Assembly (NCBI GenBank): GCA_002110465.1
Contig: NEED01000005.1
Coordinates: forward strand, 1-64,000
DNA: 64,000 bases
Reading direction: 5' to 3'
Origin: an unicellular cyanobacterium SU2
GTDB lineage: Bacteria > Cyanobacteriota > Cyanobacteriia > Cyanobacteriales > Microcystaceae
The notes under the pieces were generated by a model. It was not told the origin of the DNA. It worked only from the letters and a program-made list of their open reading frames with translations, and did no database searches. Shown here one piece after another: positions 30,827-34,789 of this stretch (position 1 is its first letter; each line of letters begins with the position of its first letter). The translations under genes and the position numbers were made by a program.

Positions 30827-31300
30827 TCATGACTTTACGTCAGGTAAAAACTCAAAACTTAAGGTTTCTTTTACAGAAAAAGGATTTTTGAGCGGGAAAA
30901 TGTCGAGAGATAAACCTGTTTCATCTGCTGCTTCTTTACGAGCATAATCATAGCAAGATTCAAAAACATCGGTTAAATATTTCTTCAAACTGAGACTATC
31001 TTCTAAACTTCTGATAATTCTTCTTCTATGTTCTCTAATCGTATAACGCCAACTATTGGTCTGTTTTTCAGGTTGGTATTGATATTTGAGCAAGTGCATC
31101 AGTAAAACAATTAAATTGCTTTCAATAGCACGTTTTTCACTTCTCCCCATTGCTTCTATTTCTTCAATCAAATTATCGTAGTCTAGTTTCTCAAGTTGAC
31201 GATTTTTTAACAATTTGGCAGTGATTTTTAACCAGAGATGATAATCTTGCTCATAAAGATTAGTTATGGTATTCTGTTGTTGATTGAGTTGAGTTTTCAT
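30827..31300 (-). CDS. DUF29 family protein
   Basis: 157 residues. Core pattern LYEQDYHLWLKITAKLLKN, LDYDNLIEEIEAMGRSEKRAIESNL and LLMHLLKYQYQPE, followed by WRYTIREHRRRI, is diagnostic of DUF29, a family greatly expanded in cyanobacteria. It is helical and cytosolic with no signal. The function is unknown; members often sit near transposase remains, as here. The last 25 residues (KNPFSVKETLSFEFLPDVKS) look intact, so the gene is probably full length. Confidence 0.9.
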   Translation of the reverse strand: MKTQLNQQQNTITNLYEQDYHLWLKITAKLLKNRQLEKLDYDNLIEEIEAMGRSEKRAIESNLIVLLMHLLKYQYQPEKQTNSWRYTIREHRRRIIRSLEDSLSLKKYLTDVFESCYDYARKEAADETGLSLDIFPLKNPFSVKETLSFEFLPDVKS

Positions 31301-32318: not shown

Positions 32319-32657
32319 TTAGTGACTAACCAAACTATCGTGACTTAAAGGCACTAAATCACCGTGAATGGTCAATCCCAACAACATTAGTTCATGCTCT
32401 GCAATTAATTTACCCGTAAGAACACAGCTTTGATCTTTCCTCGCAGTAGCTTCAATAGTAGCTCGAATATCAGCTTTAGAAAATTTAGGTCGATAAGTTC
32501 CTGACTTTTGTTGTACATAATTCCAGAGAATATCTCTGATCAACGCTTGATAACCTTGATTTCCAGCTAATTCCTTCAGCTTTTCCTTTAAAGTTCGTTC
32601 TAAGCGAATACTGGTAACTTCCATCTCAGTTGTTGACATTCTTGGAATAGTTCCCAT
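32319..32657 (-). CDS. Ribbon-helix-helix-type protein
   Basis: About 112 residues from ATG 32657, chosen because GGAGA lies 8 nt upstream. An earlier in-frame start would add 13 hydrophobic residues that look like translated spacer. The stretch EVTSIRLERTLKEKLKELAGNQGYQALIRDIL has the strand-helix-helix pattern of CopG/MetJ-type DNA-binding domains. The C-terminal half includes CVLTGKLIAEHELMLLGLTIHG and is unfamiliar. It could be a local transcriptional regulator or an antitoxin, but no toxin gene is adjacent. It diverges from the peptide/radical SAM pair. Confidence 0.65.
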   Translation of the reverse strand: MGTIPRMSTTEMEVTSIRLERTLKEKLKELAGNQGYQALIRDILWNYVQQKSGTYRPKFSKADIRATIEATARKDQSCVLTGKLIAEHELMLLGLTIHGDLVPLSHDSLVSH

Positions 32658-32993
32658 AATATTTATCTCCAATAAAAATATGAAATAAGGTAACACAATT
32701 GTAGTATAAATTAATTCTTTTGAACACCATGGAAAACATTACATTTTCCTACAGGAAGTCAAGAAGATCAAACGATTAACAATCTACTCATTACTACTTA
32801 ATTCGACTTTATTTCTATCAACATAATTACTAAATTCATCAATTTACCGATATTTTGGGACTGACATCACCTCTAATCACCCCATATAGTCAAGATAACA
32901 ATTAAAAGTTGTCGTTCAAATCTATCGAGTCAATGAAAGGGTTAACCCTCAAATTCAACTCAAAACTTAACTCACACTAAGGAGAATCTCACA
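32658..32993. promoter_or_regulatory. Divergent intergenic region upstream of peptide gene
   Basis: 336 bp between the ribbon-helix-helix gene and the peptide gene, AT-rich with no coding frame. It holds a perfect 12-bp palindrome AGGGTTAACCCT at 32938-32949, 45 bp before the peptide start. This is a candidate operator or short transcript hairpin. A strong ribosome site (AAGGAGA) precedes the ATG at 32994. Confidence 0.4.
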
Positions 32994-33350
32994 ATGGCTA
33001 CTAACAAAATCAAATTAATGCTTGGCGTTTTTGCGATGACGAGTGTTGCTGCTTTAACACCATCTGTAAATGCTGAACCCACATCTTCTTATAACGGTAT
33101 TCTAAACCGAGCTAATCTTAACCTTGAATCTTCTTCATTACAACAAACTGAGTCCCAATCATCTCCAACCTTAGAAAAGCCTGATCTTTCTAATCAACTT
33201 GGCACAAGAGCTTGTGATGGTGGCGGTTCAACAAATAACATTTGCTCCAAAAAACCTTTTCGTAATGGTCAATTAACAACGCCTTCTGATTCTCGCTTGA
33301 ACGGAACACAAGCTCAATTTCGTGAAACAAATTTCCGAACCTTACGTTAA
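32994..33350 (+). CDS. Putative RiPP precursor peptide with signal-like leader
   Basis: 118 residues with a strong ribosome site (AAGGAGA, 8 nt upstream). Residues 1-27 resemble a Sec signal (hydrophobic core, PSVNA cleavage). A Ser/Gln-rich, Leu-spaced middle follows (28-70), then a short end with ACDGGGST (Cys74), Cys84, and three aromatic-Arg-X units: Phe89-Arg-Asn, Phe109-Arg-Glu and Phe114-Arg-Thr, closing at TLR118. It lies only 20 bp before a radical SAM/SPASM gene. The arrangement (signal-like leader, variable aromatic core, maturase next door) recalls the GrrA/OscA-GrrM pairs of cyanobacteria, but the glycine repeats are absent. The precursor role is inference. Confidence 0.65.
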   Translation: MATNKIKLMLGVFAMTSVAALTPSVNAEPTSSYNGILNRANLNLESSSLQQTESQSSPTLEKPDLSNQLGTRACDGGGSTNNICSKKPFRNGQLTTPSDSRLNGTQAQFRETNFRTLR

Positions 33351-33370
33351 TTGATTACCTAATACTTTTT

Positions 33371-34789
33371 GTGGAGATGTTTCAGAAAATGTCTCTACAA
33401 AAAAGCCATTATTCGATAATTGATCCAAACAATATGAGAAAAACTATGGACTTAAAACTTTCGCACTATCATCGTGTTTCCCCCTGTTTTTTCGATGAAT
33501 TGAACCAACGTTATAAACGAGTTATTTTTTCAACCCGTACAGCTACAATTCGCATTATTGATGATTATACTTGGAAATTATTAGGAATCGGGGAGATTGC
33601 TTCTATCCATCCAGATATTATCGACGATCTGATCACCATTGAAATTCTTGTGCCTAGCAATGAAAATGAACTAGAAACAATTATTGCCCGTAATGAAACC
33701 ATCCGCTATCAAGATGATAATCTCTATTTAGTTGTTCAACCCACTGCGTTTTGTCAGTTAGGCTGTCACTACTGTGGACAAGAGCATACAAACAAATTAA
33801 TGACTGAAGAAAATCAACAGCGATTTCTTGAACGCGCTCGTCGTCAATTAGAAACACAGAAATTTAGAAGTTTAACCATTGGTTGGTTTGGGGCAGAACC
33901 CTTAGTGGGATTATCTGTCATGAGAAGCTTAACTCCCAAATTACAATCTATGGCAGCAAGTTATGGTTGTAGCTACAATGCCAAAATTGTTACCAATGGG
34001 TTAGCTTTAACGGATAAAATTGCCACTGAACTGGTCAAAGATTTAAGTATTGACAGTATTGAAATTACCCTAGATGGAACAGCAGAATACCACGACAAGC
34101 GGCGAATTCAAAAAAGCGGTCTACCTAGCTTTGATAAAATTTTTGCTAATGTAAAAGCCTTAGTGTGCCGTCAAGATTTAGATGTTCAAGTAAATATTCG
34201 TTGTAATGTAGATGGTGAAAATTATGAATCTGTCTCTCTACTTCTGCAACAGTTAGCAGACGAAGGCATACAAGATCGGATTCATTTTTATGTAGCACCG
34301 ATTCATTCTTGGGGGAATGATGCTCATACTCGTTCCCTTTCTAAAGAAGAATTTGCTGCTTGGGAAATTCAGTGGTTTAGTGAAATGATTGAGCTTGGTT
34401 TCAACCCAAAACTATTGCCAAATCGCAATCCCATTGTTTGTATGGCTGTTCAACCCCATGCTGAGTTAATTGATGCTTATGGTAACGTTTTTAACTGTTC
34501 AGAAGTGTCTTATGTTCCCACTTATGGGACTCCTAATGAGTACGCGATCGCTCATCTTTCAGGTTTACCAATGCCAGGTCAAAGAGAGCGTTTAGGAAAT
34601 TTTAATCAGGATGTCCGTCAAGGAAAATATTCTTGTTCAACTTGTTCTATGCTACCGGTTTGCGGCGGGGCTTGTCCAAAAAGTTGGTTAGAAGGAATTG
34701 AACCCTGTCCTAGTCCTAAATATAACATTGAAGAGCGTTTACTTCTGAGTTATGCCCTTTCTCGTTTACCAAATGTTTATACCCCCTGA
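33371..34789 (+). CDS. Radical SAM/SPASM peptide-maturase-like protein
   Basis: Up to 472 residues from GTG 33371; ATGs at 33377, 33389 and later are alternatives. Residues 30-115 form an N-terminal domain like those that bind leader peptides. The radical SAM core has CxxxCxxC at Cys128, Cys132 and Cys135 (FCQLGCHYCGQ), a GWFGAEP motif (variant of GGEP, SAM-binding) and ITLDGTAEYHDKRR, seen in SPASM peptide maturases. The C-terminal SPASM region has Cys357, 376, 422, 425, 431, 435 and 446 (CSTCSMLPVCGGAC), enough for two auxiliary 4Fe-4S clusters. It probably modifies the upstream peptide, for example by cross-linking. No protease or exporter gene is adjacent. Confidence 0.88.
   Translation: MEMFQKMSLQKSHYSIIDPNNMRKTMDLKLSHYHRVSPCFFDELNQRYKRVIFSTRTATIRIIDDYTWKLLGIGEIASIHPDIIDDLITIEILVPSNENELETIIARNETIRYQDDNLYLVVQPTAFCQLGCHYCGQEHTNKLMTEENQQRFLERARRQLETQKFRSLTIGWFGAEPLVGLSVMRSLTPKLQSMAASYGCSYNAKIVTNGLALTDKIATELVKDLSIDSIEITLDGTAEYHDKRRIQKSGLPSFDKIFANVKALVCRQDLDVQVNIRCNVDGENYESVSLLLQQLADEGIQDRIHFYVAPIHSWGNDAHTRSLSKEEFAAWEIQWFSEMIELGFNPKLLPNRNPIVCMAVQPHAELIDAYGNVFNCSEVSYVPTYGTPNEYAIAHLSGLPMPGQRERLGNFNQDVRQGKYSCSTCSMLPVCGGACPKSWLEGIEPCPSPKYNIEERLLLSYALSRLPNVYTP

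Follow-up and report, generated by a model that had tools for sequence, protein, structure and literature searches.

The window analysed here, a stretch of 64,000 nucleotides from the unicellular cyanobacterium SU2, carries a gene for a small signal-led peptide followed by a gene for a radical SAM/SPASM enzyme (Table 1), and this precursor-enzyme pair is a real, recurring RiPP locus. On balance, we regard it as probable that the two genes form a cassette making a thioether-cross-linked, ranthipeptide-like secreted peptide. The locus resembles ranthipeptide systems of the NxxC type, an analogy drawn by motif with NxxcB as reviews describe it. A guess from one species, in which Phe-Arg-X units were expected to form cyclophanes, is thereby replaced by a family-wide, testable substrate rule that concerns the residue three positions before each Cys.

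Table 1. Features of the precursor-enzyme locus in the window
Feature	Position	Strand	Basis
Promoter-like element: GGGACTGACATC (32857-32868) plus -10-like TATAGT	32857..32890	+	Sequence; putative promoter role
-35-like CTGACA (32861-32866) within GGGACTGACATC; 18-base spacer; TATAGT 32885-32890		+	Sequence
Ribosome-binding site AAGGAG	32979..32984	+	Sequence; 9 bases before ATG 32994
Precursor peptide gene, 118 aa plus stop	32994..33350	+	ORF; homologues 5' of enzyme; alignments
Sec-type signal-like leader, residues 1-27, ends V-N-A	32994..33074	+	Similar leader in 11 cyanobacterial precursors
Leader motif L-N-R-A-N-L, residues 37-42	33102..33119	+	Alignment A5
First predicted ring, Thr71-x-x-Cys74 (T-R-A-C)	33204..33215	+	Position -3 rule; putative chemistry
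Second predicted ring, Asn81-x-x-Cys84 (N-N-I-C)	33234..33245	+	Position -3 rule; putative chemistry by NxxcA analogy
Phe-Arg-Asn, Phe-Arg-Glu, Phe-Arg-Thr	33258..33341	+	Absent from 11/11 other precursors compared
Hairpin between precursor and enzyme genes, 17-pair stem, 4-base loop	33366..33403	+	Folding
Radical SAM/SPASM peptide maturase, 447 aa	33446..34789	+	Pfam Radical_SAM; homologue starts; model; structures
N-terminal domain, residues 1-88, strands then helices	33446..33709	+	Model secondary structure; CteB alignment
CxxxCxxC motif, Cys103/107/110	33752..33775	+	Invariant in 15/15 aligned enzymes
Extra Cys253 (R-C-N-V-D)	34202..34204	+	15/15 in alignment A3; 22/27 ingroup enzymes
Seven SPASM cysteines 332, 351, 397, 400, 406, 410, 421	34439..34708	+	Invariant in 15/15 aligned enzymes

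The precursor gene and its surroundings

The initial annotation had reported a 118-aa signal-led peptide next to a radical SAM/SPASM enzyme, and its reading frame, ribosome-binding site, leader and two Cys (74 and 84) were all found as described. Alignments revealed a signal-like leader in 11 cyanobacterial precursors, with an A-x-A end in most; that of the window, which has a basic start, a hydrophobic stretch and the junction VNA|EP, is predicted to be cut after V-N-A. Within alignment A5 of the precursors, L37 of the LNRANL motif was invariant and A40 and L42 were at least 90% conserved, making this motif a candidate recognition site for the enzyme, while in the core C84 was invariant and N81 at least 90% conserved. 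Neither NCBIfam nor Pfam has a model that matched the precursor at E up to 1.

The spacer between the two genes (33351-33445) folds at -18.1 kcal/mol with a z of -3.5, and all five other spacers that were folded also had stems of at least nine pairs (z -2.5 to -3.9); such hairpins may keep the precursor level above the enzyme level. A repeat search of positions 32600-33450 returned no repeats and also missed the hairpin at 33366-33403 that was seen by folding.

Upstream of the precursor, the 12-mer GGGACTGACATC has nine copies in its own genome, compared with one for a reversed control. The same element lies upstream of the precursor in L003, L037, L038 and the relic L004, and it was not found upstream in L002, L033-L036 and L039-L041. 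Downstream of the eight copies that were read (the window and L104-L110) stand the precursor, three related peptides of 63-68 aa, proteins of 51, 76 and 238 aa with signal-like starts, and one protein of 196 aa. Judged from these genes, GGGACTGACATC possibly marks a regulon of mostly small secreted peptides; no published function for it was recognised, and the literature matches listed look unrelated by title. A DUF29 protein (Pfam) is encoded at 30827-31300 of the window on the minus strand, with no apparent link to the RiPP pair.

Architecture and placement of the enzyme

ATG 33446 is the most likely start of the enzyme, because homologues begin at about that position, and this start yields a 447-aa protein separated from the precursor gene by 95 bp. 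GTG 33371, which underlies the 20-bp gap given initially, was rejected as the start, as homologues align from ATG 33446 and the GTG falls within the strong predicted hairpin. The CxxxCxxC motif and seven C-terminal Cys noted earlier are indeed present, with the former renumbered from Cys128/132/135 to Cys103/107/110. The Pfam scan, run on the longer reading from 33371, gave Radical_SAM (PF04055; 36.2 bits, cut-off 29.5) as the sole model above cut-off. The SPASM spacing is complete (C-x13-G-x4-C ... C-x2-C-x5-C-x3-C ... C), and we take this seven-Cys arrangement to be the SPASM pattern for two auxiliary clusters. The extra Cys253 lies outside known cluster motifs and does not exactly track the NxxC motif among the 27 ingroup enzymes of the tree.

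The AlphaFold model of the enzyme (mean pLDDT 83.9) indicates that residues 1-88 may form an RRE-like, leader-binding domain. CteB, the thermocellin/SCIFF maturase (5WGG/5WHY), has an RRE plus two auxiliary clusters. It was the best solved-structure match by both sequence (5wgg, E 1.9e-8) and fold, with TigE also among the best structural matches and anSME following; the CteB alignment spans 456-480 columns with a TM by query of 0.63-0.65, an rmsd of 7-9 A and an identity of only 14-16%. Structural E values were 1e-15 to 1e-11 for CteB and anSME and 1e-7 for the EpeE epimerase. Thioether chemistry is ascribed to CteB in an excerpt of PMC11002830, although the SCIFF maturase model TIGR03974 gave the enzyme 53.1 bits of the 425 needed.

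The 472-aa reading of the enzyme matched 50 NCBIfam families, of which the best 25 all scored below cut-off. Together with a precursor that has no model, this bears out the earlier view of a RiPP pair of unnamed type: the pair is without a curated family, and among the NCBIfam models listed none covers the enzyme. The five top-scoring models include TIGR04463 (rSAM_vs_C_rich; 221.8 bits, cut-off 525), CefB (Cys-every-fifth; 159, cut-off 600) and Clo7bot (134, cut-off 600). These and the geopeptide maturases are the closest curated NCBIfam models among those listed, and several act on Cys-rich peptides by name, but the enzyme stands apart from TIGR04463 both in score and as a separate clade in the tree. 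When distant relatives were scanned with TIGR04463, the outgroup L058 passed at 643 and L060 fell just short at 506, and seven other relatives (two cyanobacterial, one divergent cyanobacterial and four Bacteroidota) had chance-level scores only in NCBIfam. Scores were lower for YhhB (58 bits, cut-off 445) and AmcB (46.8, cut-off 425), as well as for PapB (76.6, cut-off 340), the freyrasin enzyme. In freyrasin the Asp acceptor follows Cys, whereas the predicted acceptor here precedes Cys by three. PapB forms repeated Cys-Asp thioether rings, as outlined in parts of PMC8326336 and PMC11002830. A defence role was rejected, the sole PADLOC matches at E up to 0.01 being a pair of weak hits of the radical SAM core to viperin.

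In the enzyme tree, which left out L062 (wrong frame) and carries a long-branch warning for L005out, L085 and L045, the window falls in a 12-row cyanobacterial clade (support 100/99), which together with Chitinophaga L042, L079 and L057 makes up a 15-row clade (100/99), itself enclosed in a 21-row clade (92/88). The precursor lies 87-207 bp upstream of the enzyme at all 12 loci of the cyanobacterial clade, the window included, and the expectation that homologues of the enzyme would have a peptide beside them was thus borne out; no precursor was found for L087 in the 21-row clade.

The residue three before each core cysteine

Alignment of the homologous peptides, proposed initially as a way of finding which Phe-Arg-X positions are conserved, revealed [N/D/S/T]-x-x-Cys as the conserved motif instead. 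Every one of the 26 core Cys counted across 11 distinct cyanobacterial precursors has N, D, S or T at -3, compared with 25% expected from composition, and Asn alone occupies that position for 14 of them (shuffle mean 2.0, maximum 10 in 10,000 shuffles), while at 11 other offsets from -6 to +6 the same four residues occur for 2 to 17 of the 26; as the precursor sequences are related, the shuffle and offset counts overstate independence. Cys before residue 41 were excluded from this count (L037 has one at 11), as were L038, which is near L037, and L003 and L056, which are the same loci as or near-identical to L038/L037. The cores themselves vary, as in N-V-A-C-N-G-A-C, N-F-G-C-N-Q-G-C, D-V-A-C...N-G-I-C and, in the window, T-R-A-C...N-N-I-C. 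Core spacing differs even between a pair of congeneric genomes, C-x9-C in L002 and C-x3-C in L055, while the -3 residue stays D or N. The Asn-x-x-Cys that marks NxxC ranthipeptides is found in the window at N81-C84; before Cys74 that place is taken by Thr, and in both Myxacorys precursors Ser/Thr are the sole -3 residues. Kept across the precursors are the LNRANL-like motif, the Cys with N/D/S/T at -3 and the signal-like leader, the last being absent from the divergent cyanobacterial precursor L057, which ends N-I-A-C-D-T-S-C-K. Within each of the two Myxacorys precursors (L040 5385-5816; L041 5390-5812), the core module CDGGGSxNTGGC is duplicated.

The rule extends to relatives with unrelated leaders. 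In the 21-row clade, N or D stood at -3 for 36 of 43 Cys (1 to 16 at other offsets), a count of precursors not chosen by motif. Background, taken from 884 Cys of the remaining six-frame ORFs, was 10.1%, and precursors of enzymes outside the 21-row clade came near it, with N/D at -3 for 3 of 30 Cys and N/D/S/T for 9 of 30. A narrower set, which omitted L091, L092 and L098 (their filter required [ND]xxC) as well as L085 and three further L088/L096 precursors, had N/D for 0 of 13 there. Because the sequences share ancestry, none of these counts amounts to a series of independent trials. Just outside the clade, three precursors of L080/L081 have N/D at -3 for 8 of their 9 Cys, which means that the motif is not confined to the 21-row clade; these precursors and those of L082 were found with a filter requiring [ND]xxC and were left out of the count. 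Exceptions within the clade are the L045 precursor, with the motif at none of the three Cys after its GG (one Cys before the GG, with Asn at -3, was excluded), and single Cys off N/D in L042, L043, L044 (Ser) and L079.

In Sediminibacterium roseum, three precursors lie in divergent orientation, carry double-glycine-like sites and have 18 of their 19 Cys as N-x-x-C; they were chosen by eye among five ORFs that passed a filter requiring GG and two Cys but not Asn, and a C39 peptidase-ABC exporter lies downstream. Among Bacteroidota, double-glycine-like leaders occur in L043, L044 and L086, with a C39 exporter at the L043 locus, and SNGTC repeats are present in a Bacteroidia MAG. We give slightly better than even chances to a two-phylum family of NxxC-type thioether RiPPs with no NCBIfam model past cut-off, whose cyanobacterial members would be Sec-led, large, lightly cross-linked and secreted, and of which some Bacteroidota members would have double-glycine-like leaders and up to seven Cys, nearly all as N-x-x-C. 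At L088 (2904-3393), precursors of a sister enzyme carry the Cys-Trp core pairs NDCW, NECW and NSCW, which suggests a different target motif.

The cyanobacterial GrrA/OscA precursors have a signal-like leader and likewise lie adjacent to a SPASM enzyme, GrrM/OscB. Three-residue cyclophanes, as made by GrrM/OscB and other triceptide enzymes, had been proposed initially at the Phe-Arg-Asn, Phe-Arg-Glu and Phe-Arg-Thr units, which do exist in the window peptide, and XncB or OscB links Phe with the Asn two positions further along (excerpt of PMC11002830). However, Phe-Arg motifs are absent from all 11 other precursors, FRN/FRE/FRT being found in 1 of the 12 compared, the window's alone, so that Phe-Arg-X finds no confirmation as a meaningful feature and the cyclophane reading, now very improbable, was rejected. 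Some other aromatic-x-[NDSTRKE] triplet is present in 3 of the 11 (L033 FKD, L034 FQR, L057 FLD/FST/FVD), and 8 of the 12 have none in the last 60 residues. Membership in GrrM/OscB or the triceptides is likewise unsupported, as the match to TIGR04261 is weak (51.7 bits, cut-off 310) and no aromatic-x-x motif is conserved here, the conserved motif being at Cys.

Streptococcal NxxcB joins the Cys sulfur to the Asn beta-carbon in N-x-x-C, and the known beta/gamma thioether acceptors are Asn, Asp and Thr, according to sections of PMC8326336 and PMC13361665. As portrayed in the same sections, NxxcA/NxxcB of Streptococcus orisratti/porci share with the present pairs the Asn-x-x-Cys core and a radical SAM plus SPASM enzyme, a likeness that comes from motif and domain descriptions, whereas the hosts differ, the leaders here are Sec-like in cyanobacteria and double-glycine-like in some Bacteroidota, and the precursors have up to seven Cys with Ser/Thr/Asp variants. 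A sactipeptide, with sulfur-to-alpha-carbon thioethers at the same Cys, on the -3 residue or another, appears unlikely: backbone chemistry would allow the acceptor to shift among N, D, S and T, and alpha-thioethers too are made by radical SAM enzymes of RiPPs (portions of PMC8326336 and PMC13361665), but the -3 set nearly equals the beta/gamma acceptors given in the PMC8326336 section, and the fold is closest to CteB, a gamma-thioether enzyme as part of PMC11002830 describes it. Another radical modification near the Cys, such as epimerisation with Cys253 as the hydrogen donor, with the Cys forming a disulfide or binding metal after export, seems quite unlikely, since it would leave the strict -3 spacing and the six-fold N-x-x-C precursors unexplained. 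Short C-x3-C pairs could bind metal, Cys253 is invariant in alignment A3 and EpeE structures are among the structural matches; yet CteB and anSME match better than EpeE, and Cys253 does not track the motif.

For the preferred thioether reading, the RRE-like N-terminal domain would bind the precursor leader, probably around LNRANL. A radical formed upon SAM cleavage would then take hydrogen from the residue three before each core Cys (Asn81, Thr71), and the Cys sulfur, which a SPASM auxiliary iron-sulfur cluster probably holds in place, would bond that carbon. By analogy with NxxcA, the bond is expected at the beta-carbon of the -3 residue, giving up to two four-residue rings, N81-C84 and T71-C74, with 2 Da lost per ring. 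The modified peptide would finally leave via Sec through its signal-like leader, and we guess that it serves as a secreted signal or antagonist. In the cyanobacterial loci, where five neighbour genes were scanned in Pfam, no exporter came to light. If true, the thioether reading would take Asn-Cys thioether chemistry beyond streptococci, into cyanobacteria and Bacteroidota. It would also make available enzymes that naturally act on substrates with as many as seven candidate rings, and would pose the question of whether Sec can export a peptide that was stapled while still in the cytoplasm. A Bacteroidales mining study proposed gamma-thioethers for one P. gulae cluster (seen in an excerpt of PMC10352776), and no NxxC family in cyanobacteria or Bacteroidota was recognised among the best-ranked open-access literature, which makes this a weak claim. 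In Chitinophaga niastensis (L042 7262-8455), a gene matching JmjC_2 (Pfam) follows the enzyme and possibly provides a second tailoring step.

Occurrence and decay of the locus

One scan of genome contigs yielded 14 loci, comprising nine intact cyanobacterial loci (in Nostoc, Chrysosporum, unicellular cyanobacterium SU3, Cyanothece BG0011, Dulcicalothrix and Myxacorys), four from Bacteroidota and one cut-off relic, a truncated enzyme in Crocosphaera watsonii WH 8501. An enzyme search of 388 genomes of the window's order matched 15 at E up to 1e-40. Six of these have an enzyme scoring above 600 bits, three have fragments (the relic among them), and the remaining six have distant relatives, with best matches of 179-236 bits. 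At E up to 1e-90, the enzyme was matched in 8 of 298 genomes sampled from the Chitinophaga order and in 5 of 296 sampled across the phylum Bacteroidota. When these 388 cyanobacterial genomes were searched with a profile of 11 precursors, seven were hit. Five hits were strong (111-151 bits), all in genomes that have the enzyme, and two were weak (28 and 23 bits), in genomes that do not; the strong ones are profile members or near copies, and the search says only that no convincing precursor was seen without the enzyme in these 388 genomes. The profile missed the sixth enzyme genome, G491, whose precursor has another leader. No plasmid match for the window locus was found in PLSDB at E 1e-5. The sparse occurrence and decayed copies would fit an accessory trait, for which a signal or an antagonist is our guess.

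Among the decayed copies, the C. watsonii relic (L046 1213-1545, the same locus as L004) holds a truncated enzyme plus a precursor scrap, and L063 and L065 are enzyme fragments in two further genomes. Orphan second precursor copies lie away from the enzyme in two genomes (L118, 1501 onward, and L119); the second core Cys is lost from both, and the start of one is in a different reading frame. The one core Cys that they keep has Gln at -3, outside the rule, and was excluded from the count.
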